From assembly GCF_900683735.1 (NCBI RefSeq), contig NZ_LR215979.1, positions 2,418,001 to 2,482,000 of the forward strand: a DNA stretch of 64,000 nt. Direction: 5' to 3'. The notes beneath the pieces were generated by a model. The model was not told the origin of the DNA, made no database searches, and saw nothing but the letters and a program-made list of their open reading frames with translations. Each line of letters starts with the position of its first letter. Position 1 is the first letter of the stretch. The translations under genes and the position numbers were made by a program. Below are positions 13,231 through 24,085 of this stretch, one piece after another. Source of the stretch: Fusobacterium ulcerans ATCC 49185. Lineage in GTDB: Bacteria; Fusobacteriota; Fusobacteriia; Fusobacteriales; Fusobacteriaceae.

Positions 13231-14082
13231 TTATATTTTTTTACTATTTATATATTTCTCTTTGTATTTTACAGGACTCATTCCATCAAGCTTCAACTGT
13301 ATTCTTTCATTATTATAGAAATGTATATACTCTTTTATTTTTTGAGCTAGATTTTCATATGTCATTCCTCTATCTAATAAGTATATCAGTTCTGCTTTAA
13401 AATGTCCAAAGAATATCTCAATAGGTACATTATCCCAGCAGTTGCCACGTCTTGACATAGATTGAATAACTCCTTTCTCTCTTAGCATATCACAATATTT
13501 TTCTCCTGTATACTGAAAACCTTGATCAGTATGTAAAATACATTTTTCTTCCAATGGAAATTCAAAGATTTTATCCAAAGTTTTTACAACAAGTTCAAAG
13601 CCATCAGTGAGTCCTAAGTCATAAGCAATTATTTCCTCATTAAAAATATCTTTCACAGCATTCATATACACAGTAAAATTATACATTTTTATTTCTGTAA
13701 TATCCATACATAATTTTTCTAAAGGTTTACCAGAATTAAAATCTCTGTTTAATATATTCTCAACAACTTTTCCAGCCCAACTTTTGCCTTTATAACTCTG
13801 ATTTCTTATTATTGATTTTACTCCCAGCTCTCTCATTATTCTATATATTCTTTTATGATTTACTTTAAATTCCGTATTATTGTTTATGTATGAGCATAAT
13901 CTTTTTACTCCATATGTTCCATTGTATTTTTCATTTATTTCTATAATCAGCTCTTCTATTTTTCTATTTTCCTGTTTTCTTAAACTTGTATCATCTTTCC
14001 GCTTCTTCCATTTATAATAAGCACTTCTTGACACTCCTGCAGCCCAGCATAGAGATGTGACAGGATATTCATCCTCCAACAT
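13231..14082 (-). CDS. IS3-family transposase OrfB (DDE integrase core)
   Basis: 283 residues from the first ATG, but it is probably made as an OrfAB fusion by -1 frameshifting. It has an HTH_21-like region near the N-terminus, then the rve core with the three catalytic acidic residues in CMDITEIKMY, HTDQGFQY and NVPIEIFFGHFKAEL. It catalyses cut/copy-and-join steps of transposition. Confidence 0.93.
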   Translation of the reverse strand: MLEDEYPVTSLCWAAGVSRSAYYKWKKRKDDTSLRKQENRKIEELIIEINEKYNGTYGVKRLCSYINNNTEFKVNHKRIYRIMRELGVKSIIRNQSYKGKSWAGKVVENILNRDFNSGKPLEKLCMDITEIKMYNFTVYMNAVKDIFNEEIIAYDLGLTDGFELVVKTLDKIFEFPLEEKCILHTDQGFQYTGEKYCDMLREKGVIQSMSRRGNCWDNVPIEIFFGHFKAELIYLLDRGMTYENLAQKIKEYIHFYNNERIQLKLDGMSPVKYKEKYINSKKI

Positions 14083-14084
14083 TT

Positions 14085-14420
14085 CTATAGCTCTATATTT
14101 GGTTCTTCCAGCTGCAGAATATACAACTTTTTTAAGTATTCATTCTCCATTCTCAAATATTTATTTTCCTTTTTTATTGATATGTTTTTCTCATTAGAAG
14201 CTGTTTTTATCTTTTTTAAAATCATTTTCTTACTGCTTCTTCTTTTATCAAAAGCTCTTTCTCCCAATTCTTTATATTTTTTTACCCAATCTAATATTTG
14301 TGTATCAGATTTAACTCCATATTCTTTTGCCAGCATTTCAGCACTTACATTAGATTTTAAATATGTTTTTACAACTGATAATTTTAATTTTTTATCATAC
14401 CTACTATACTCTTTACACAT
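14085..14420 (-). CDS. IS3-family transposase OrfA (helix-turn-helix protein)
   Basis: 111 residues. It has an N-terminal helix-turn-helix of the IS3 OrfA type (VKTYLKSNVSAEMLAKEYGV) and a C-terminal leucine-zipper-like coil (KKENKYLRMENEYLKKL). It binds the element ends and regulates transposition. A GGAGG site precedes the start. The slippery heptamer for the OrfAB fusion is inside its last 20 codons. Confidence 0.92.
   Translation of the reverse strand: MCKEYSRYDKKLKLSVVKTYLKSNVSAEMLAKEYGVKSDTQILDWVKKYKELGERAFDKRRSSKKMILKKIKTASNEKNISIKKENKYLRMENEYLKKLYILQLEEPNIEL
14127..14133 (-). other. A AAA AAG programmed -1 frameshift site
   Basis: Read on the minus strand in the OrfA frame the codons are TTA AAA AAG, giving the heptamer A-AAA-AAG used by many IS3 elements. 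Slipping back one base continues VVYSAAGRTKYRAIE and runs straight into the OrfB frame without a stop. Confidence 0.8.
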
Positions 14421-14603: not shown

Positions 14604-14626
14604 AGTGCCTACCTAAGGTAAGCACT
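14604..14626 (-). terminator. Terminator of porin 1
   Basis: AGTGCTTACC/GGTAGGCACT hairpin followed by nine T on the minus strand. It is a diverged member of the hairpin found after all five porins. Confidence 0.8.
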
Positions 14627-14657
14627 AAAAATTTTTTATTTAATTTTTTAAACCAAA

Positions 14658-15752
14658 CTAGAATGAAGTTCTGAATCCTGCAAATACAGTTGGCTGCCAT
14701 CTCCAGTTAGATGCTTCACTCTCAGCCGTAATATTCCAGTTTCTGTATTCAGCCCCAGCTGCTGCATATACTTTTACAGATGGAGTTGCTTGATAGTTAA
14801 CTTGAATTGTTGGTAATGCATATAATTGATATGCTGCATGTTTTTGACTAGTTATAGACTTATTTAAAAATGCCTTTTCTTTAGCCCAAGAATAAGTATC
14901 ATATCCACCTTCGAAATTGAAGTCAACTGATACTTTTCCATTTGTATATAGGTTAGTTGTATTATAGATATAAGCTTCCACATCTACAGTAAAGTTTTTA
15001 TCTTTTTCATCCCATGTAGCTTCTCCATTTCTTATTTTTCCATTAACTATTTGGTCAGCTCCATAAAAATGTTGAGTTGTATATAAATTAAACTCAAATG
15101 AGAATCCCCATGGTAATTCATGCATTGTATATAAATCTACACCTAATTGATTATCATATTCATCAGAAAAATCATCTTCATCAGCGAACACATGTCTATA
15201 TTTTGGAGCTACTACAAAGTTAGTAGTTTTTACAAAATCATTGTTGAACATATATTCTGCAAAATTAAATCTTGCTTGATATTCTAAATGTCTAGCATTA
15301 TTATTGTCTCTTGCTTCAACTCTTGAAGTAAAATCAACTTTAGAATCTCCAAGTAATCCATGATTATATGTATATCTTAATCTTGTGTCATCTCCAGTTT
15401 TTCCTCCAACTTTAGAATTTTCAGAAGTAAATTTATTAAAATCTCTTACTCTGTATTCTAAAGCTTGTTTTTCAGTCATATTAATTTTTCCTTGTAACTG
15501 AAGTCTTCCATACTTATTATTTCCATTCCAATCAGTTCCATCTTGAGTTTCAGTTTCACCATAGTATCTGTATTGAAGATCAACATAACCGTTAGGTCTG
15601 AATCCTTCTTCTTTGTCTCTGTAAACGATAACTTCTTTTTCGATTACTTGAACTGGTGCTTCTTCAACTACAACTGGAGCTGGTACAACTTCTTTTGCAG
15701 ATGCTGATGCTACAACAAGTAAAGAACCTAGTAAAAGTGCTAATTTTCTCAT
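14658..15752 (-). CDS. FomA-family outer-membrane porin, array copy 1
   Basis: 364 residues. It starts with the signal peptide MRKLALLLGSLLVVASASA and a Pro/Val/Glu-rich linker ending EGFRPNG (to about residue 54), both shared with the four other copies. The rest is alternating hydrophobic beta-strand sequence ending in Phe, as for barrels handled by the BAM complex. Similarity to F. nucleatum FomA includes WRWQP near the C-terminus and NLYTNGK / NFEGGYD. FomA is a trimeric voltage-dependent porin, adhesin and major antigen. This copy is last in transcription order and has its own leader and terminator. Confidence 0.93.
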   Translation of the reverse strand: MRKLALLLGSLLVVASASAKEVVPAPVVVEEAPVQVIEKEVIVYRDKEEGFRPNGYVDLQYRYYGETETQDGTDWNGNNKYGRLQLQGKINMTEKQALEYRVRDFNKFTSENSKVGGKTGDDTRLRYTYNHGLLGDSKVDFTSRVEARDNNNARHLEYQARFNFAEYMFNNDFVKTTNFVVAPKYRHVFADEDDFSDEYDNQLGVDLYTMHELPWGFSFEFNLYTTQHFYGADQIVNGKIRNGEATWDEKDKNFTVDVEAYIYNTTNLYTNGKVSVDFNFEGGYDTYSWAKEKAFLNKSITSQKHAAYQLYALPTIQVNYQATPSVKVYAAAGAEYRNWNITAESEASNWRWQPTVFAGFRTSF

Positions 15753-15911
15753 AATTATCTCCCCTTTAAAAAGATTTTTTTATACCTCCCCCCTAACTTC
15801 CAAGGGGAGATATTTCCCATTACCAATGGAGGGGAGGGTTGACAAATCTTCTTGTTAGAACCCCAAAAAAAGAGGATAGAAAAAGGATAGACATACCCCC
15901 TTTTAGTAGAC
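15753..15911 (-). repeat. Porin leader block, copy 1 (159 bp)
   Basis: Upstream block of porin 1, near-identical in copies 1, 3, 4 and 5 and partly in copy 2. On the minus strand it contains a conserved CTATCCTTTTT / CTATCCTCTTT double element, an ATCTCCCCTT stretch, a GGGGGGAGG stretch and the GGGGAG ribosome site. Confidence 0.9.
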
Positions 15912-15936
15912 AAAAAAAATCAAGAAAAATTAAAAA

Positions 15937-15959
15937 AAGTCTGCCAAAAAGACAAACTT
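15937..15959 (-). terminator. Terminator of the zeta-toxin unit
   Basis: AAGTTTGTC pairs with GGCAGACTT (with G-U pairs) and seven T follow on the minus strand, directly after the zeta stop codon. Confidence 0.65.
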
Positions 15960-15961
15960 TT

Positions 15962-16528
15962 TTAAATATATTTAATTATATTTTCCAACCATTTAGGAAT
16001 ATTTTCATCCCAGATAATATTTCCATTTTCTACCAAAAGACATTCTCTTATATATTCACTATTATCATATACAGTTATTTTATCACACATCTTAAAAACT
16101 TTTTTAAAATTTTCAAATGATTCAACATACCTTTTTTCTATATCTTTATCTGGTATTCCATGACCACCATTTCTTACTCTTATTCTTACTCTTTCTTTAG
16201 CAATTTCTACATTTTTTACTCCAATATAGTGTAAATATATTTTAAAGCCTTTTTCTTTAGCTTTTAAAATCCCTTTTAAAACAGTATTCCCTGTCAAAGT
16301 AGTTTCTTGATTAAAAGAAATTCCTTTTTCTATATATTCATTTCTCCAACTAATTCCAATTCTGGCAGCCTTTATCTGATCAGATGAATTTTTCCATTCT
16401 CCAATCTCTTTTACTATTTCATCAGTATTAATTCTTTTCCCTAAATCATTATTCTTTATTATTTCAATATTATATAAAGTTGATTTACCAGCTCCATTTA
16501 CTCCTGCAAAAATAGTATATACCTTCAT
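15962..16528 (-). CDS. Zeta-toxin-family P-loop kinase
   Basis: 188 residues. The Walker A motif GVNGAGKST is at residues 9-17, INTDEIVKEI follows, and RVRNGGHGIPDKDI lies near residue 133. This is the compact COG4185-type relative of zeta toxins. Classical zeta phosphorylates UDP-N-acetylglucosamine and blocks wall synthesis. It starts two bases after the stop of a 57-residue gene that would be the antitoxin. Whether it is toxic and what it phosphorylates are inference. The pair sits between two porin units with its own terminator. Confidence 0.85.
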   Translation of the reverse strand: MKVYTIFAGVNGAGKSTLYNIEIIKNNDLGKRINTDEIVKEIGEWKNSSDQIKAARIGISWRNEYIEKGISFNQETTLTGNTVLKGILKAKEKGFKIYLHYIGVKNVEIAKERVRIRVRNGGHGIPDKDIEKRYVESFENFKKVFKMCDKITVYDNSEYIRECLLVENGNIIWDENIPKWLENIIKYI

Positions 16529-16529
16529 A

Positions 16530-16703
16530 TTAATATATTCCTTCTTCTATAATCTTCTTCTGCTCTTCTTGAAGTAAAAAGTTCCTTGCATTAAAATAAA
16601 ATTCCTTTTCTTCTTTTGTTTTAGCTGATTTTATTAATTCAAAGTACTCATCTATTTTTAAAGTTTTAAAATATTCATATATATTTATATCTCTTATTTC
16701 CAT
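16530..16703 (-). CDS. 57-residue putative antitoxin paired with the zeta toxin
   Basis: A short gene beginning MEIRDINIYEYFKTLKID and ending IIEEGIY. It has a GGAGG site 7 bases before the ATG at 16703 and ends two bases before the zeta start. It is acidic/basic and helical, the right size and place for a zeta antitoxin, but I see no recognisable epsilon-type sequence. It is too short for routine gene finding. Function is inferred from position only. Confidence 0.65.
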   Translation of the reverse strand: MEIRDINIYEYFKTLKIDEYFELIKSAKTKEEKEFYFNARNFLLQEEQKKIIEEGIY

Positions 16704-16790
16704 ATTCTGACCTCCATTATTATAGTCTTTTTATATATGTTAACCTTTTTTTTAAATAAAATCAATGAATATTTATGTATACACAAAAAA

Positions 16791-16812
16791 AGTGCCCACA
16801 AATGTGAGCACT
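16791..16812 (-). terminator. Terminator of porin 2
   Basis: AGTGCTCACA/TGTGGGCACT hairpin plus a T run on the minus strand. Confidence 0.85.
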
Positions 16813-16843
16813 AAAAAATTTTTATTTAATTTTTTAGACCAAA

Positions 16844-17935
16844 CTAGAATGTAGTTTTAAATCCTGCAAATACAGTTGGCTGCCATCTCCAGTTCTTAGC
16901 TGAATTTTGATTATCAATAGCCCAATCTCTATATTCAGCACCAGCTGCTGCATATACTACAACATTTGGAGTTGCTTGATAGTTAACTTGGATTGTTGGT
17001 AATGCATATAGTGAATAAGCTGCATCATCAGTTCCTGCTTCACCATATTTACCAGTTAATTTTGTTCCAAATTTCTTTTCTTGTGACCAGTTGTAAGCAT
17101 CATATCCACCTTCAAAGTTAAAGTCTACTGTTACATTTCCATTTGTATATAGGTTAGTAGTATTGTATAAATATGCTTCCATATCTACTGTAAAGTTCTT
17201 ATCTTCTGATTTTCTTCCACCGTCAAATGCTTGATCTTGCCCATAGAAATGTTGATCAACATAGAAATTTAACTCAAATGAGAATCCATATGGTAATTCA
17301 TGGAATGATGCAATATCAAACCCTAGTCTATTATCATAAGCATCATCATTTGTTGAATCCCATACATATTTGTATTTAGGTGCTACTACAAAATTAGTAG
17401 TTTTAATAAAATCATTGTTGAACATATATTCAGCAAAGTTAAATCTTGCTTGATATTCTAATTCTTGTGCACCAGATGCTAAATCTCCTCTATCTCTATA
17501 ATGTACTCTTGAAGTCAAATTAACTTTAGAATCTCCAAGATTTCCATGGTTATAGAAATATCTTAGTCTTGTATCAGAACCAGATTTTCCAGTTTTTTCT
17601 TCAGAAGAAACACTGTTATATTTTCTGATTCTATATTCTAAAGCTTGTTTTTCAGTCATATTAATTTTTCCCATTAACTGAGTTCTTGAATAGTTAGTTT
17701 CTCCTGCCCAACCTTCACCTTTTTTTTGTCCTTCAGTTTCACCATACCATCTGTATTGTAGATCTACATAACCGTTAGGTCTGAACCCTTCTTCTTTGTC
17801 TCTGTAAACGATAACTTCTTTTTCGATTACTTGTACTGGTGCTTCTTCAACTACAACTGGAGCTGGTACAACTTCTTTTGCAGATGCTGATGCTACAACA
17901 AGTAAAGAACCTAGTAAAAGTGCTAATTTTCTCAT
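16844..17935 (-). CDS. FomA-family outer-membrane porin, array copy 2
   Basis: 363 residues with the shared signal peptide and EEGFRPNG linker, a beta-barrel body and a C-terminal TTF. It is most like copies 1 and 5 in the strands around EYQARFNFAEYMFNNDF and NWSQEKKFG. It is the only copy with a canonical promoter in its leader (18011-18039), so it may be the most strongly or independently expressed one. Loops between strands (for example after YRWYGETEG and the DQAFDGGRKSED region) differ from the other copies, as expected for surface-exposed antigenic loops. Confidence 0.93.
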   Translation of the reverse strand: MRKLALLLGSLLVVASASAKEVVPAPVVVEEAPVQVIEKEVIVYRDKEEGFRPNGYVDLQYRWYGETEGQKKGEGWAGETNYSRTQLMGKINMTEKQALEYRIRKYNSVSSEEKTGKSGSDTRLRYFYNHGNLGDSKVNLTSRVHYRDRGDLASGAQELEYQARFNFAEYMFNNDFIKTTNFVVAPKYKYVWDSTNDDAYDNRLGFDIASFHELPYGFSFELNFYVDQHFYGQDQAFDGGRKSEDKNFTVDMEAYLYNTTNLYTNGNVTVDFNFEGGYDAYNWSQEKKFGTKLTGKYGEAGTDDAAYSLYALPTIQVNYQATPNVVVYAAAGAEYRDWAIDNQNSAKNWRWQPTVFAGFKTTF

Positions 17936-17938
17936 AAT

Positions 17939-17995
17939 TATCTCCCCTTTAAAAAGATTTTTTTATACCTCCCCCCTAACTTCCAAGGGGAGATA
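17939..17995 (-). promoter_or_regulatory. Candidate translational switch in the porin leader (shown for copy 2)
   Basis: On the minus strand, TATCTCCCCTT (17985-17995) is exactly complementary to AAGGGGAGATA (17939-17949), which contains the ribosome site. The same C-rich stretch can instead pair with GGGGGGAGGT (17967-17976) lying between them. The two helices exclude each other, so the ribosome site could be hidden or free. All five porins carry both pairing options. Confidence 0.45.
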
Positions 17996-18010
17996 TTTCC
18001 CATTACCAAT

Positions 18011-18039
18011 GTTATACATTATTTTTACAGTTTTGTAAA
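18011..18039 (-). promoter_or_regulatory. Promoter of porin copy 2
   Basis: TTTACA (18034-18039), 17-base spacer, TATAAC (18011-18016) on the minus strand. The start point would be near 18004, giving a leader of about 70 bases. The segment is absent from the other four leader blocks. Confidence 0.65.
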
Positions 18040-18210
18040 TACTTTTTTTAAAATTTCTTCACAAAATTTTCATATTACAGTCACAAATCTCCTAAATATA
18101 ATACTTTAAATACCCCAAAAAAAGAGGATAGAAAAAGGATAGACATACCCCCTTTTAGTAGACAATTTTTTTTGTGATTATTTTGTGAAGATGTAAAAGT
18201 AAAATAAAAA

Positions 18211-18236
18211 GAGGCTGATCTTTTCAGAACAGCCTC
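18211..18236 (-). terminator. Terminator between HEPN-1 and porin 2
   Basis: GAGGCTG/CAGCCTC hairpin followed by TTTTTATTTT on the minus strand. It would end transcription coming from the HEPN-1 side. Confidence 0.7.
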
Positions 18237-18271
18237 AACCTCGGGGAGAGATTTTTTATATAAAATTTTAT

Positions 18272-18556
18272 TATTAGCGTTTCCCTCTTATTGAGAGGGT
18301 TTATAAGATTTTCTGGGAAAAATCTTTTTTCTATTTAATGGGGGTATTAACAACTTTACTAGATTCTTTATTGTTTTTTTATCTATGTTATTTAGACTCT
18401 TCTTTTTCTTAAAAAGTTTAAATATTTTTTATTTTTTTGTTTTCTCCCCTCTTTTTTATCAGAGGGGAGAACATTTTTTCTGGGGGAGAAAAAATCTTTA
18501 TTATTTGTTGTTTTATTTCTATGATATTTAGACTCTTGATTGTTTAAAAAAGTTTA
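18272..18556 (-). repeat. Two diverged tandem non-coding repeats with hairpins
   Basis: Two copies (about 18272-18420 and 18443-18556) share, in the same order on the minus strand, AAACTTTTT, AAGAGTCTAAATA, a purine-rich stretch, AAAGATTTTT, CCCAGAAAA and a C/G hairpin. The hairpins are CCCTCT/AGAGGG at 18283-18299 and TCTCCCCTCT/AGAGGGGAGA at 18443-18470. There is no reading frame. This fills the otherwise gene-free stretch between HEPN-1 and porin 2; the role is unknown. Confidence 0.5.
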
Positions 18557-18573
18557 AAAGTTTTTTAATTATT

Positions 18574-18996
18574 TTATTTTTGTATATTAATTTCATATTT
18601 TAATATTTCTCTTGCTAGTTCTAATGTATCCTTTAGGTGAGTTTCAATAATTTTTTGTAATATATTTAAATTTATAGCTTGATAATCATGAACTGCAATA
18701 TTTCTAAATCCTACCATTCCCTGTAGTTTTTTGCTTAGTTCTTTAGAAATAATATTATTCTTTTCTAATATTTGAAAAGTTTCTTTACTACTCTGAAAAA
18801 TTCCATATTTATTTATTCTAATCACATGGGCAGCAAGATCTATTCCTGCTTCACATAAGCGTTGAATATTTAAAATCATAGAATCCTGTTTTGTACAATT
18901 TTCTAAATTTGATGGATTGTTTTCATATTCTTCTTCTACTCTTTTTATACATTTTTTTATTGTTTCAATTTTATTAATTATAATATCATCTTTCAT
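18574..18996 (-). CDS. HepT-like HEPN protein (DUF86), copy 1
   Basis: 140 residues, all-helical. The HEPN ribonuclease motif RNIAVHDY (R-x4-H-x-Y) is near residue 100 in the order typical of HepT, preceded by LCEAGIDLAAHVI and ELSKKLQGMVGFRN. HepT toxins cut tRNA or other RNA and are silenced when their partner MntA AMPylates the tyrosine. No MntA gene is adjacent; the gene is flanked by a porin terminator upstream and a hairpin-rich gap downstream. It is clearly paralogous to the HEPN protein at 20350. Confidence 0.87.
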   Translation of the reverse strand: MKDDIIINKIETIKKCIKRVEEEYENNPSNLENCTKQDSMILNIQRLCEAGIDLAAHVIRINKYGIFQSSKETFQILEKNNIISKELSKKLQGMVGFRNIAVHDYQAINLNILQKIIETHLKDTLELAREILKYEINIQK

Positions 18997-19039
18997 CTCT
19001 CACCTCCTAAATAATAATTATTATATCACAATTAAAAAA

Positions 19040-19061
19040 AGTGCCCACAAATGTGAGCACT
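19040..19061 (-). terminator. Terminator of porin 3
   Basis: AGTGCTCACA/TGTGGGCACT hairpin plus a T run, same as after porin 2. Confidence 0.85.
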
Positions 19062-19091
19062 AAAAATTTTCATTTAATTTTTTAAATCAAA

Positions 19092-20144
19092 CTAGAATGT
19101 AGTTTTAAATCCTGCTATAACAGTTGGTTGCCATCTCCAATTAGTAGCTTCACTTTCAACTTCTACAGCCCAGTTTCTGTACTCAGCACCAGCTGATAAA
19201 TATACTACAACATTTGGAGTTGCCTGATAATTAGCCTGAATAGCTGGCCATGCATATAAAGAATATTTTGCATCCTCTTGTTTTTCTCTTGAATTAGTGA
19301 AAGCTTTTTCTTGAGACCAGTTATATTGATCATATCCACCTTCAAATACAAAATCTATTCCTAAATTACCATTTGTATATAGATTAGTTGTATTACGTAA
19401 ATATGCTTCCATATCTATTGTAAAGTTTTTATCTTTATTAGCTATTTTGTCATTAAAATCTTGATCTTGTCCATAGAAGTGTTGAGTTGTATATACATTA
19501 AATTCAAACGCAAAACCATATGGTAAATCTGTCCATGTATATAAATCTACACCTAATTGATTATCATAGTTATCAGTATTTTTATTCCATACATAAGCAT
19601 ATCTAGGTGCTACTGTAAAGTCAGTAGTTTTTACATAATCATTGTTGAACATATAATCAGCAAAGTTAAATCTTGCCATATACTCTACATCTTGAGCCCC
19701 AGCATTTTTGTCTCTATATTGAACTCTTGAAGTAAAGTTAACTTTAGAATCTCCAAGATTTCCATGGTTATAGAAATATCTTAATCTTGTTTCTGTTTTA
19801 GTTTGATTTTCTTTCGCATTTAAACTGTTCCAATCTCTAATTCTAAATTGTAACTGTTGTTTTTCAGTCATATTAATTTTTCCACTTAATTGAATTCTTG
19901 AATAGTTATTATCACTATTCCAAGTCCCTTTATTTTGCCCCTCAGTATCTCCATAATATCTGTATTGAAGGTCAACATTTCCATTAGGTCTGAACCCTTC
20001 TTCTTTGTCTCTGTAAACGATAACTTCTTTTTCGATTACCTGTACTGGAGCTTCTTCAACTACAACTGGAGCTGGAACAACTTCTTTTGCAGATGCTGAT
20101 GCTACAACAAGTAAAGAACCTAGTAAAAGTGCTAATTTTCTCAT
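19092..20144 (-). CDS. FomA-family outer-membrane porin, array copy 3
   Basis: 350 residues, the shortest of the five. It has the shared signal peptide and linker (EEGFRPNG), a beta-barrel body and the C-terminal WRWQPTVIAGFKTTF. Its DTEGQN / NNYSRIQLSGK segment resembles copy 4, while its middle part (VDLYTWTDLPYGFAFEFN) is its own. It has its own leader block and terminator. Confidence 0.93.
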   Translation of the reverse strand: MRKLALLLGSLLVVASASAKEVVPAPVVVEEAPVQVIEKEVIVYRDKEEGFRPNGNVDLQYRYYGDTEGQNKGTWNSDNNYSRIQLSGKINMTEKQQLQFRIRDWNSLNAKENQTKTETRLRYFYNHGNLGDSKVNFTSRVQYRDKNAGAQDVEYMARFNFADYMFNNDYVKTTDFTVAPRYAYVWNKNTDNYDNQLGVDLYTWTDLPYGFAFEFNVYTTQHFYGQDQDFNDKIANKDKNFTIDMEAYLRNTTNLYTNGNLGIDFVFEGGYDQYNWSQEKAFTNSREKQEDAKYSLYAWPAIQANYQATPNVVVYLSAGAEYRNWAVEVESEATNWRWQPTVIAGFKTTF

Positions 20145-20303
20145 AATTATCTCCCCTTTAAAAAGATTTTTTTATACCTCCCCCCTAGCTTCCAAGGGGA
20201 GATATTTCCCATTACCAATGAGGGGGAGGATTGACAAATCTTCTTGTTAGAACCCCAAAAAAAGAGGATAGAAAAAGGATAGACATACCCCCTTTTAGTA
20301 GAC
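20145..20303 (-). repeat. Porin leader block, copy 3 (159 bp)
   Basis: Same 159-base block as copies 1, 4 and 5. On the plus strand it carries the AGGGGGAGGATT variant, shared only with copy 4; copies 1 and 5 have GGAGGGGAGGGTT. Confidence 0.9.
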
Positions 20304-20310
20304 AAAAAAA

Positions 20311-20334
20311 TTTCATCCTCACAATCAGATGAAA
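20311..20334 (-). terminator. Terminator of HEPN-2
   Basis: TTTCATC/GATGAAA hairpin followed by seven T on the minus strand, 15 bases after the HEPN-2 stop. Confidence 0.7.
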
Positions 20335-20349
20335 TTAGTATCTTAGTTT

Positions 20350-20754
20350 TTATATTTTTATTATTTCTCTTGCTAATTCTAAAATATCTTCTAAATTATT
20401 TTCAACAATTTTTTGTAATATTCCTAAATCTATAGTTTGATAATTATGAATTGCAACATTTCTAAATCCTATCATTTCCTGAAGTTTTTTGCTTAACTCT
20501 TTAGAAATAACATTATTTTTTCCCAATATTTGAAATATTTCCTGACTGCTTTGAGGAATACCATATTTATTTATTCTTATTACATGAATCCCTAATCCTA
20601 TTCCTGTTTCGCATAATCTTAGAATATTTAAAATTATTGAATCCTGTTTTGTGCAATTTTTCAGGTTTGATGAATCATTATCATATTCTTCACTTATTCT
20701 TTTTATACACTTTTTTATTACTTCAATTTTATTAATTATAATATCATCTTTCAT
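20350..20754 (-). CDS. HepT-like HEPN protein (DUF86), copy 2
   Basis: 134 residues, a close paralogue of copy 1 (same MKDDIIINKIE start and nearly the same helices). The catalytic motif is intact as RNVAIHNY. The porin 4 unit separates it from the MntA-like gene at 22169, which would be its natural partner in an ordinary hepT-mntA operon. It has its own terminator. Confidence 0.87.
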   Translation of the reverse strand: MKDDIIINKIEVIKKCIKRISEEYDNDSSNLKNCTKQDSIILNILRLCETGIGLGIHVIRINKYGIPQSSQEIFQILGKNNVISKELSKKLQEMIGFRNVAIHNYQTIDLGILQKIVENNLEDILELAREIIKI

Positions 20755-20806
20755 ATTTTACCTCTCATAAAATATTTTATGATTTATTATATCACATATA
20801 TAAAAA

Positions 20807-20828
20807 AGTGCCCACAATTGTGAGCACT
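20807..20828 (-). terminator. Terminator of porin 4
   Basis: AGTGCTCACA/TGTGGGCACT hairpin plus a T run. Confidence 0.85.
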
Positions 20829-20858
20829 AAAAATCTTTATTTAGTTTTTTAAATCAAA

Positions 20859-21938
20859 CTAGAATGTAGTTTTAAATCCAACTGTAATATATGGTTGCCA
20901 TCTCCAGTTAGTTGCTGATTTTCTTCCTTCTTCAGCCCAGTTTCTATATTCTGCACCAAGATTTGTGTAAGCAACTACATTTTCAGTAGCTTGATAATTA
21001 AATTGGAACTCAGGATTCCAGTAAGCTGAATAAGAAGTATCTTGATCTCCTTTTGTTCCATAAATATCTTTTTCACTCCAGTTGAAGTTATTATATCCCC
21101 CTTCGTTATATAGAGCAATACTTAATTTTCCTTCAGAATATAATGAAGTAGTTTGTGCAAAATAAACTTTTAATCCTACAGTTGCATTTTCATCATAAGT
21201 TTTTCCATTTGCAGCTATTTTTTTATCTTGACCATAGAATTTATACATGAAAGTACTATCTGTTTCAATTCCTGTTTCAAATCCCCATGGATGTTGGTTA
21301 ACCATTAAAAAATATAACCCTAATCCATTATAATAATCTGAATCATTTGTTGCCCATCCATATTCATAAGTAGGAGCTAATATAAAAGCTGTTGTTTTAA
21401 TAAAATCATTATTGAACATATAATCAGCAAAATTAAATCTTGTTTGATATTGTACTGATTGTGAAGAGTTAGAACCATCTTGATATTGAATTCTTGAAGT
21501 GAAGTTAACTTTTGAATCTCCAAGATTTCCATGATTATAGAAATATCTTAATCTTGTTTGAGTTCCATCACCTGTTACATGTTTTTTCTCATTTTCATTT
21601 AAATCATTCCATTCTCTTATTCTAAAGTATAAAGACTGTTTTTCAGTCATATTTACTTTTCCTTCTAATTGAGTTCTTGAGTAATTATTTCCATCTTCTT
21701 CTGAGTATCCATGCCAAGTTCCCTCATTTTGTCCTTCAGTATCTCCATAATATCTGTATTGTAGATCTACGAAACCGTTAGGTCTGAACCCTTCTTCTTT
21801 GTCTCTGTAAACGATAACTTCTTTTTCGATTACTTGTACTGGTGCTTCTTCAACTACAACTGGAGCTGGTACAACTTCTTTTGCAGATGCTGATGCTACA
21901 ACAAGTAAAGAACCTAGTAAAAGTGCTAATTTTCTCAT
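20859..21938 (-). CDS. FomA-family outer-membrane porin, array copy 4 (most diverged)
   Basis: 359 residues. The first 54 residues match the other copies, but the body differs more: GLYFLMVNQHPWGFETGIE replaces the usual LYTMHELPWGFSFEFN, and FAQTTSLYSEGKLSIAL replaces the YNTTNLYTNG strand. It still ends WRWQPYITVGFKTTF. It may have a different pore or antigenic surface. It lies between the MntA-like and the HEPN-2 genes. Confidence 0.93.
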   Translation of the reverse strand: MRKLALLLGSLLVVASASAKEVVPAPVVVEEAPVQVIEKEVIVYRDKEEGFRPNGFVDLQYRYYGDTEGQNEGTWHGYSEEDGNNYSRTQLEGKVNMTEKQSLYFRIREWNDLNENEKKHVTGDGTQTRLRYFYNHGNLGDSKVNFTSRIQYQDGSNSSQSVQYQTRFNFADYMFNNDFIKTTAFILAPTYEYGWATNDSDYYNGLGLYFLMVNQHPWGFETGIETDSTFMYKFYGQDKKIAANGKTYDENATVGLKVYFAQTTSLYSEGKLSIALYNEGGYNNFNWSEKDIYGTKGDQDTSYSAYWNPEFQFNYQATENVVAYTNLGAEYRNWAEEGRKSATNWRWQPYITVGFKTTF

Positions 21939-22097
21939 AATTATCTCCCCTTTAAAAAGATTTTTTTATACCTCCCCCCTAGCTTCCAAGGGGAGATATT
22001 TCCCATTACCAATGAGGGGGAGGATTGACAAATCTTCTTGTTAGAACCCCAAAAAAAGAGGATAGAAAAAGGATAGACATACCCCCTTTTAGTAGAC
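21939..22097 (-). repeat. Porin leader block, copy 4 (159 bp)
   Basis: Same block, with the copy 3 variant in its centre. Confidence 0.9.
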
Positions 22098-22103
22098 AAA
22101 AAA

Positions 22104-22130
22104 ATATTCATCTAAAATTAAGATGAATAT
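22104..22130 (-). terminator. Terminator of the MntA-like gene
   Basis: ATATTCATCT/AGATGAATAT hairpin followed by a T run on the minus strand. Confidence 0.7.
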
Positions 22131-22168
22131 CATAAGCTACTTCTTATAAAAAATTATTAATTAATTTT

Positions 22169-22552
22169 TTATACTTCATAATTATCTATTATTTCTTTTC
22201 TTTCTTCATTCAGTTTTAAATATTTTTTTAAAACAAGATTTTCAAATTTCTCTCTTTGAATTTTATTTTTCTCATATATCAAAATACCATTTTCTACAAC
22301 TTCTTTTTGAAACACTGTTGTAGAAAAATTTATTTGAATCAAGTCTACCTCTTTTCCTAATTGCAGAGAAATTTCTTGAGCTAGAAGAAAAATATCATAA
22401 GAATCATGCTTAATCAACGAATAAAAGGCTATATCTACATCACTATCATTATTTTGTTCTCCTTTAGCATATGAACCAAATATATAAATAAAATCACATT
22501 CTATATTTTCTAATTTTTTTATTATTTTATCAGCATATTTTTCAATCTCCAT
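22169..22552 (-). CDS. MntA-like minimal nucleotidyltransferase (antitoxin type)
   Basis: 127 residues. The nucleotidyltransferase signature GSYAKGEQNNDSDVDIAFY (GSx10DxD) is at about residues 27-45, with the third acidic residue in KEVDLIQI. In hepT-mntA systems the MNT protein AMPylates HepT to neutralise it. Here it is the only MNT gene in an array that holds two HepT-like genes, and a full porin unit separates it from the nearer one. It has its own terminator, so it is expressed independently. Confidence 0.87.
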   Translation of the reverse strand: MEIEKYADKIIKKLENIECDFIYIFGSYAKGEQNNDSDVDIAFYSLIKHDSYDIFLLAQEISLQLGKEVDLIQINFSTTVFQKEVVENGILIYEKNKIQREKFENLVLKKYLKLNEERKEIIDNYEV

Positions 22553-22606
22553 AATTAAACAGCTCCATTAATATTTTATGTCTTCATTATATCATAGATA
22601 TAAAAA

Positions 22607-22628
22607 AGTGCCCACAATTGTGAGCACT
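22607..22628 (-). terminator. Terminator of porin 5
   Basis: AGTGCTCACA/TGTGGGCACT hairpin plus a T run. Confidence 0.85.
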
Positions 22629-22658
22629 AAAAATTTTTATTTAATTTTTTAGACCAAA

Positions 22659-23861
22659 CTAGAATACAGTTTTAAATCCTGCAAATACAGTTGGCTGCCA
22701 TCTCCAGTTAGTTGCTGAACTTCCACTGTTTACTGCCCAATCTCTATATTCTGCACCAGCTGCTGCGTATACTTTTACTGATGGAGTTGCTTGATAGTTA
22801 AATTGAATTGTTGGTAATGCGTATAGTGAGTATTTAGAATTATCTGTTCCTACACCTTTTCCATTTTTAGTTTCTATACCATTTTTATCTTTATTAACTA
22901 CAACTGTATCATTTATTTTATCATATTTATCTACATACTTTCCACCTTCTCTACGAGGTGCACCAAATTTTTTCTCTTGTGACCAGTTGTAAGCATCATA
23001 TCCACCTTCAAAATTGAAGTCTACTGATACTTTTCCATTTGTATATAGGTTAGTTGTATTATAGATATACGCCTCTACATCCACTGTAAAGTTTTTATCT
23101 TCCATTTTGTCAGTTCCATCATAGAATTGATCTTTTCCATAGAAATGTTGAGTTGCATATACATTTAATTCAAATGAAAATCCTAATGGAAATTCATGCA
23201 TTGTATATAAGTCTACACCTAATTGGTTATCATAAGAATTATCATTTGATGAATCCCATGCATATTTGTATTTTGGAGCTACTACAAAGTTAGTTGTCTT
23301 TACAAAATCATTACTGAACATATAGTCAGCAAAATTAAATCTTGCTTGATATTCTAATTCTTGTGAATCATCATCATGTCCATTATCTCTGTAATGTACT
23401 CTTGAAGTTAAGTTAACTTTAGAATCTCCTAATAATCCATGATTATAGAAGTATCTTAATCTTGTATCTGTTCCATCTTTTCCATTTCCTTCATGAGTAG
23501 TTACTGCGTTGTAATCTCTGATTCTATACTCTAAAGTTTGTTTTTCAGTCATGTTGATTTTTCCACTGAATTGAATTCTTGAATAATTATTTCCTGTATT
23601 CCAGTTTCCATTTCCATCAGTAGTTTCACTTACTGTTTCAAATTTGTCTTCTTGTCCTTCAGTTTTTCCATACCATCTGTATTGTAGATCTACATAACCG
23701 TTAGGTCTGAACCCTTCTTCTTTGTCTCTGTAAACGATAACTTCTTTTTCGATTACTTGTACTGGTGCTTCTTCAACTACAACTGGAGCTGGTACAACTT
23801 CTTTTGCAGATGCTGATGCTACAACAAGTAAAGAACCTAGTAAAAGTGCTAATTTTCTCAT
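22659..23861 (-). CDS. FomA-family outer-membrane porin, array copy 5 (longest)
   Basis: 400 residues, about 40 longer than the other copies. Extra length is in a loop after residue 65 (QEDKFETVSETTDGNGNW) and a charged, Lys/Asp/Asn-rich loop near residues 310-345. The rest closely follows copies 1 and 2 and ends with the shared WRWQPTVFAGFKTVF. Long variable loops between conserved strands fit surface-exposed regions. It is first in transcription order and borders trkA. Confidence 0.93.
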   Translation of the reverse strand: MRKLALLLGSLLVVASASAKEVVPAPVVVEEAPVQVIEKEVIVYRDKEEGFRPNGYVDLQYRWYGKTEGQEDKFETVSETTDGNGNWNTGNNYSRIQFSGKINMTEKQTLEYRIRDYNAVTTHEGNGKDGTDTRLRYFYNHGLLGDSKVNLTSRVHYRDNGHDDDSQELEYQARFNFADYMFSNDFVKTTNFVVAPKYKYAWDSSNDNSYDNQLGVDLYTMHEFPLGFSFELNVYATQHFYGKDQFYDGTDKMEDKNFTVDVEAYIYNTTNLYTNGKVSVDFNFEGGYDAYNWSQEKKFGAPRREGGKYVDKYDKINDTVVVNKDKNGIETKNGKGVGTDNSKYSLYALPTIQFNYQATPSVKVYAAAGAEYRDWAVNSGSSATNWRWQPTVFAGFKTVF

Positions 23862-24020
23862 AATTATCTCCCCTTTAAAAAGATTTTTTTATACCTCCCC
23901 CCTAGCTTCCAAGGGGAGATATTTCCCATTACCAATGGAGGGGAGGGTTGACAAATCTTCTTGTTAGAACCCCAAAAAAAGAGGATAGAAAAAGGATAGA
24001 CATACCCCCTTTTAGTAGAC
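23862..24020 (-). repeat. Porin leader block, copy 5 (159 bp)
   Basis: Same 159-base block, with the copy 1 variant in its centre. Confidence 0.9.
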
Positions 24021-24085
24021 AATTTTTTTACAAAAAAAATTCTATAGTAAAAGAAATTTAAATTACCATTTTATATTTTTTAGTT

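Follow-up and report, generated by a model that had tools for sequence, protein, structure and literature searches.

A tandem array of FomA-family porin genes with one promoter-bearing unit in Fusobacterium ulcerans, a probable single-expression-site system

The porin array and its leaders

We analysed a window of 64,000 nucleotides (C1:2418001-2482000) from the complete 3.84-Mb genome of Fusobacterium ulcerans ATCC 49185 (G000), which carries a tandem array of genes for FomA-family porins. FomA, the major porin of Fusobacterium, is abundant and has been studied as an antigen and as a virulence factor. Five FomA open reading frames (ORFs) follow one another head-to-tail on the minus strand, spanning positions 14658-23861. 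Between them lie the genes of a zeta-like kinase with a 57-aa ORF, two HepT-type proteins and one MntA-type protein (Table 1). The ORF coordinates and family profile matches bear out a sequence-only reading made earlier, which had described five tandem FomA-type porins with genes of toxin–antitoxin type between them. Units are numbered here in the order of transcription, so that units 1-5 are copies 5, 4, 3, 2, and 1 of that reading. Two of the porins were tested against the NCBIfam model major_OM_FomA (NF049909, cut-off 350 bits, full length) and scored 528 and 552 bits (E 1e-158 and 6e-166). The other three share 61-74% identity with the promoter-bearing porin of unit 4.

An AlphaFold2 model of the promoter-bearing porin shows a 14-strand barrel with a mean predicted local distance difference test (pLDDT) score of 72, and its best Foldseek matches are OmpG and CymA. 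The predicted barrel starts at residue 56, directly after the N-terminal 55 residues, which do not vary among the five proteins. At the DNA level this part is 96-100% identical, in agreement with the common N-terminus claimed earlier. Mean identity is 0.19 in the predicted outer loops vs 0.80 in the periplasmic turns, and outer loop 6 reaches up to 46 residues. In this model, porin variation is concentrated in the predicted outer loops.

All leaders consist of a common 53-bp block, a variable segment of either 101 bp (promoter type) or 32 bp (promoterless or "null" type), and a common 76-bp untranslated region (UTR). The leader of unit 4 is the only one in G000 with the core fomA promoter, TTTACA-N17-TATAAC. 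Its -10 hexamer adjoins the conserved region CATTGGTAATGGG, where the mRNA is expected to start. The sequence-only reading had given every unit a 159-bp leader and called one of them mosaic. Near identity holds for copies 1, 3, 4, and 5, whose leaders measure 161 bp, but that of copy 2 has 230 bp. It does differ from the others, as stated, but the promoter as the cause was missed, and hence the one-promoter design. The grouping of leader variants into copies 1 and 5 versus 3 and 4 is seen at a C-rich site, but a second site (GTTAGG/GCTAGG) separates 1 and 2 from 3, 4, and 5. Terminator hairpins occur, as had been described, 3' of all five porins, with that of copy 1 the most diverged; the region contains 11 terminator-like sites vs 2.4 ± 1.7 in shuffles. 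The promoterless units are complete translatable genes with a ribosome site and a terminator. The leader block is confined to the array, with no other occurrence in the G000 genome, and no genome with the leader pattern was found outside the genus among the other genera of the family that were searched. IMG/VR contains no relatives of the array.

Twelve Fusobacterium genomes, one per species, were searched for comparison, and the array, its promoter count, and the cassette moves are known here from DNA sequence across these species. In three sister species (G008, G009, and G010) an array of three porins each is found at the same place, between trkA and a pair of IS3-type genes. Slots within the arrays can be set by orthologous spacers: the trkA side, spacers H and Z, the side of the insertion sequence (IS), and the MntA and HepT spacers. 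With n for a unit without promoter and P for one with it, the order in G000 (in the direction of transcription) is n-Mnt-n-HepT-n-HepT/H-P-Z-n-IS. It is n-Z-n-HepT/H-P-IS in G008, where spacers Z and H are swapped, n-cargo/H-n-Z-P-IS in G009, and n-H-P-Z-n-IS in G010. The partial genome of G007 contains a unit with a promoterless leader right before a contig end, and the array design may thus extend beyond the four species.

The 101-bp promoter segment is present in exactly one unit in each of G000, G008, G009, and G010, and absent from the remaining 4, 2, 2, and 2. A TTTACA-17-TATA(A/G) element also lies 5' of the single-copy fomA of G002, G005, G006, and G011, and a recognizable TTTACA/TATA element is found at this position in G001, G003, and G004. 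Because the same element accompanies single-copy fomA elsewhere in the genus, we take this to be the ancestral promoter of fomA and regard the array, in which most copies have no promoter, as derived. The promoterless ORFs are intact in 10/10 cases across the four array species. Omega (the ratio of nonsynonymous to synonymous substitution rates) is 0.23 and 0.42 for the barrels of two pairs of promoterless orthologues. Together with the intact ORFs, these values indicate that selection acts on the promoterless genes, which are presumably expressed from time to time.

Cassette exchange and a probable single expression site

Barrels and slots are not fixed to each other. Barrel alpha with the promoter occupies the slot between H and Z in G010 and G000, and the slot between Z and IS in G009. 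Barrel beta carries the promoter in G008 unit 3 and none in G010 unit 1, the two being 91% identical. The promoter-linked barrel is alpha in G000, G009, and G010, and beta in G008. Spacers and terminators follow the slot, leaders follow the genome, and barrels follow neither. The clearest case was obtained by sliding identity for G009 unit 3, whose flanks match those of G010 unit 3, mostly at 86-98%. The stretch running from the 5' block through the stop codon, promoter included, instead resembles G010 unit 2 (84-100%), and at the terminator the match returns to G010 unit 3, its slot-mate. By this alignment, G009 unit 3 is a whole-cassette replacement with borders where homology begins and ends. 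The proposal that the porins are exchangeable cassettes thus stands, with 5, 3, 3, and 3 porins in the four species, a varying order, common unit borders, and whole cassettes moved between slots. A fixed order and number of porins, named beforehand as the observation that would speak against exchange, is not what the four species show.

In a tree of the 5' zone the units group by genome (3 label changes, the minimum; 0/200 shuffles as low), whereas the barrel tree does not group by genome (9 label changes, shuffled mean 8.1). At 129 non-coding leader sites, units differ by a mean of 0.74 substitutions within a genome vs 10.3 between genomes. Judged by these patterns, the leaders are under concerted evolution within each genome, and their near identity within and divergence between genomes indicates that exchange in the 5' zone took place long after the species had split. 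Despite this recent exchange, the promoter segment has neither multiplied nor disappeared; a constant promoter number would be expected under selection for one active copy. The sequence-only reading had also suggested conversion of surface-exposed loops, which the comparison does not support below the scale of the whole barrel: non-orthologous barrels have no excess of long exact runs within genomes relative to between genomes (Mann-Whitney p=0.67). As far as these alignments reach, the exchange unit is the whole cassette and not the loop, and the homogenised parts are the leader and the N-terminus.

These observations suggest, with a probability of roughly 60%, that the locus is a single-expression-site surface-protein system with intact promoterless cassettes. 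One fomA unit with the strong vegetative promoter would make the major porin, and the other units, which have no core promoter, would normally be silent. The units have in common a 5' homology zone (the 53-bp block, the 76-bp UTR, and the first 165 coding bases) and a 3' homology zone (the last codons and the terminator). Homologous exchange between these zones would move a promoter-plus-barrel cassette to another slot, or set the promoter before another barrel. The cell would retain one active promoter and change the displayed barrel, and so its set of outer loops.

Several observations weigh against this interpretation. The moves are seen between species only (flanking-gene synonymous divergence, dS, ~0.4-0.6), none within a strain, and no tyrosine recombinase is found within 350 kb of the array, serine recombinases lying outside the search. 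With 4 promoters among 14 units, one per genome would arise by chance with p ~0.03 by our own arithmetic, which is not negligible, so that the case rests on the combined evidence. The 5' block of every unit contains TTGTCT-18-TATCCT, which in a naive sigma-70 matrix scores no worse than the presumed fomA promoter. Finally, the null core AAGATTTGTSAACCCnCCCC is conserved in the four species, which could mean function. Given the promoter-like element and the conserved core, weak or conditional transcription of the other copies is possible.

The first two of these points fit a slow evolutionary reservoir, in which silent promoterless copies are exchanged on an evolutionary time scale only and no phase or antigenic switching takes place within a strain; the absence of sub-barrel conversion tracts agrees with it as well. 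We consider this explanation unlikely. The few leader differences within a genome, relative to those between species, place exchange far later than speciation, and omega values of 0.2-0.4 in ORFs that are still intact speak for repeated expression.

The last two points fit a differentially regulated family with concerted leaders, in which all units are expressed, one from the fomA promoter and the others from a promoter that is conditional or read by an alternative sigma factor and lies in the 5' block or null segment. The purifying selection on the promoterless ORFs is compatible with this, as is a 53-bp-type block that also precedes the single-copy fomA of G011. However, neither G011 nor G007 retains the TATCCT hexamer in its related block. 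The null segment gave no consistent sigma-70 match and, with its weak local similarity to the promoter segment, may have arisen from it by deletion. Moreover, the barrel behind the promoter is not the same in all species, which would not be expected under a fixed division of labour, and we regard expression of all units as quite unlikely. For promoters of the extracytoplasmic function (ECF)/sigma-E type in the null leaders, the regions upstream of sigma-factor genes were inspected and no AAC-type motif matched, leaving little to compare.

A role of the null segment in hiding the ribosome site in the RNA was considered and rejected, as the predicted folds differ from species to species and mRNAs of the promoter type pair at this site as well. 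The 53-bp blocks (window 15753-24022) contain TGTCTA direct repeats 19 bp apart, which are kept in G011 5' of the single-copy promoter and are possibly a regulator site.

Spacers and flanking genes

Table 1. Features of the porin array and its borders (positions in the window)
Feature	Position	Strand	Description
Unit 1 FomA-family porin	22659..23861	-	400 aa; promoterless leader; gamma-type barrel, 89% identity with the barrel of G010 unit 3
Unit 1 promoterless (null) leader	23862..24022	-	null-specific 32 bp at 23938-23969
MntA-type adenylyltransferase antitoxin	22169..22552	-	between units 1 and 2; NF047752, E 3e-31
Unit 2 FomA-family porin	20859..21938	-	359 aa; promoterless leader
Unit 2 promoterless leader	21939..22099	-	
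HepT-type HEPN RNase toxin	20350..20754	-	separated from MntA by porin unit 2; NF047751, E 2e-40
Unit 3 FomA-family porin	19092..20144	-	350 aa; promoterless leader; delta-type barrel, 85% identity with the barrel of G009 unit 2
Unit 3 promoterless leader	20145..20305	-	
Second HepT-type HEPN gene	18574..18996	-	NF047751, E 4e-45
Spacer H, conserved non-coding	18166..18573	-	5' of the promoter-bearing unit
Candidate small RNA in H	18202..18278	-	C-rich stretch UCUCUCCCC, then terminator hairpin
Unit 4 FomA-family porin	16844..17935	-	363 aa; only promoter-bearing unit; barrel type alpha
Unit 4 promoter-bearing leader	17936..18165	-	230 bp
Promoter-specific 101-bp segment	18012..18112	-	in place of the 32-bp null segment
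Core fomA promoter	18011..18039	-	TTTACA 18039-18034, 17-nt spacer, TATAAC 18016-18011
57-aa ORF, candidate antitoxin	16530..16703	-	5' of the zeta-like gene; conserved in L096-L098
Zeta-toxin-like P-loop kinase, spacer Z	15962..16528	-	PF06414
Unit 5 FomA-family porin	14658..15752	-	364 aa; promoterless leader
Unit 5 promoterless leader	15753..15913	-	
Unit 5 terminator	14604..14626	-	type goes with the slot, not with the barrel
IS3-type OrfA/OrfB pair	13231..14420	-	downstream border of the array; NF033516

Spacer H is 91-95% identical in the four species, while dS of trkA is ~0.6, and it is recognizable 5' of the single-copy fomA in G011. The candidate small RNA (sRNA) within it is identical at 70-73 of 75 nt across species. 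It is complementary to the porin Shine-Dalgarno sequence GGGGAGA, with a predicted duplex stronger than that of about 99% or more of shuffles. No Rfam family scores above the gathering threshold for this candidate, and a sub-threshold match of spacer H to PyrR (24.7 vs 54 bits) was dismissed. In Fusobacterium nucleatum, the fomA mRNA is targeted by the C-stretch sRNAs FoxI and FoxJ (PMC11005410). The candidate in spacer H is likewise C-rich, faces the same porin family, and would follow a similar logic; that study treats fomA of F. nucleatum as one gene (PMC11005410), whereas here it forms an array.

Spacer Z is 90-94% identical in the four species. Its zeta module is found in 4/4 arrays, where it evolves under purifying selection (omega about 0.1). 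With respect to a toxin–antitoxin system of Zeta/PezT type, the kinase matches the zeta-toxin domain (PF06414), and the 57-aa partner has no Pfam or NCBIfam match. MntA is found only in G000 and not in G008-G011. HepT occurs only in G000, in two copies, and in G008, which has no MntA anywhere; the arrays of G009 and G010 contain neither. This patchy distribution indicates that MntA and HepT are dispensable. Both families of the type VII MntA/HepT system are matched in G000, but the genes are not adjacent, one porin unit lying between them and the second HepT one unit further. The layout (window 20350-22552) resembles that of a type VII toxin–antitoxin operon into which a cassette has been inserted.

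The sequence-only reading had proposed that the toxins punish loss of units. The constancy and selection of the zeta module agree with such a guard against unit deletion, as does the fact that MntA and HepT flank one of the porin units of G000. On the other hand, HepT and MntA are patchy, HepT of G008 stands without MntA, the copy number varies (5 vs 3), and the antitoxin role of the 57-aa protein, which falls in no known family of these databases, is putative. The proposal is therefore weak, and a guarding function of these genes appears improbable to us, though for the zeta module it is conceivable.

Cargo seems to accumulate in the spacers. In G009, two small genes without PADLOC matches lie in the spacer that precedes H (L097:8858-9657), and one of them starts like a replication or helix-turn-helix protein. 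Several conserved genes of this genome (L097: IS3 OrfB, coaX, trkH) are broken by apparent single-base indels, suggesting homopolymer errors in the assembly.

The OrfA/OrfB pair at the downstream border occurs once in the genome, keeps its syntenic position in the four array species, is not present at the single-copy locus of G011, and is under purifying selection (omega 0.05-0.11). OrfB of G009 has a one-base frameshift, possibly a sequencing error. No obvious mobile ends were found around the pair. These properties are odd for an insertion sequence, and the pair is possibly domesticated. Its company with the array could mean that it carries out site-specific cassette exchange. This is very improbable in our view, as the exchange borders simply coincide with the ends of homology and IS3 transposases are not known for conservative cassette exchange.

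Two more FomA loci of G000 (467-470 kb and 381 kb) differ from the array in their leaders. A second FomA-type tandem, a pair of the MKKS type, was observed at L099:4323-6815 and L115:3880-6378. It has a leader type of its own, and in G000 it is followed by a response regulator and a sensor kinase.

Possible switching and relation to known systems

For the single-expression-site system proposed above, we infer that switching would take place within one strain by RecA-type homologous exchange, and that antibodies, phages, or solutes would select among the variants. A more specific version is an active, reversible porin switch, with a mobile promoter and clonal cells that display different major porins. 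The possibly domesticated IS3-type protein may help in such a switch, and the candidate sRNA may control the active copy. We hold this version tentatively, at somewhat less than even odds.

At the DNA level, the locus combines several properties of a single expression site: one promoter copy, common 5' and 3' ends around a variable centre that is surface-exposed in the predicted model, and a promoter-linked allele that differs between species. Nearest in mechanism, by this comparison, are the vlhA system of Mycoplasma synoviae and the vmp system of Borrelia hermsii. The former has a single promoter and promoterless relatives that recombine with it (PMC4206340, PMC2825196), the donors being about 70 silent pseudogene copies (PMC4534519). 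Both loci thus have one promoter copy among promoterless homologues. In contrast to vlhA, the donors here are complete genes, 2-4 per locus, with unrelated spacers between them, and the product is an outer-membrane porin. The vmp genes are "activated by promoter addition", with donors on the chromosome and on plasmids and a duplicative, one-way transfer (PMC4534519). As in our array, upstream and downstream homology borders the exchange into a promoter-bearing site, and whole genes are replaced (PMC4534519). Unlike in B. hermsii, promoter-bearing and promoterless units stand here in one chromosomal array, and the moves are between slots.

In the vsa system of Mycoplasma pulmonis and the vpma system of M. 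agalactiae, a promoter with N-terminal coding DNA is joined to formerly silent local genes, as proposed here, but by site-specific inversion (PMC4534519). The fusobacterial units have one orientation in the four genomes, with no tyrosine recombinase near. Inverted repeats with an adjacent recombinase, as in the invertible-promoter systems (Bacteroides, vsa, vpma), are not what is found here. A promoter switch by inverted repeats was accordingly rejected: besides the constant orientation, a repeat scan yielded no pair of strong inverted repeats. In the open-access literature searched, we found no report of a Fusobacterium porin array, promoterless copies, or switching.

If the single-expression-site interpretation is true, recombination could change the surface identity, the phage and antibody sensitivity, and the permeability of a gut species, and the Fusobacteriota would join the phyla with expression-site variation.

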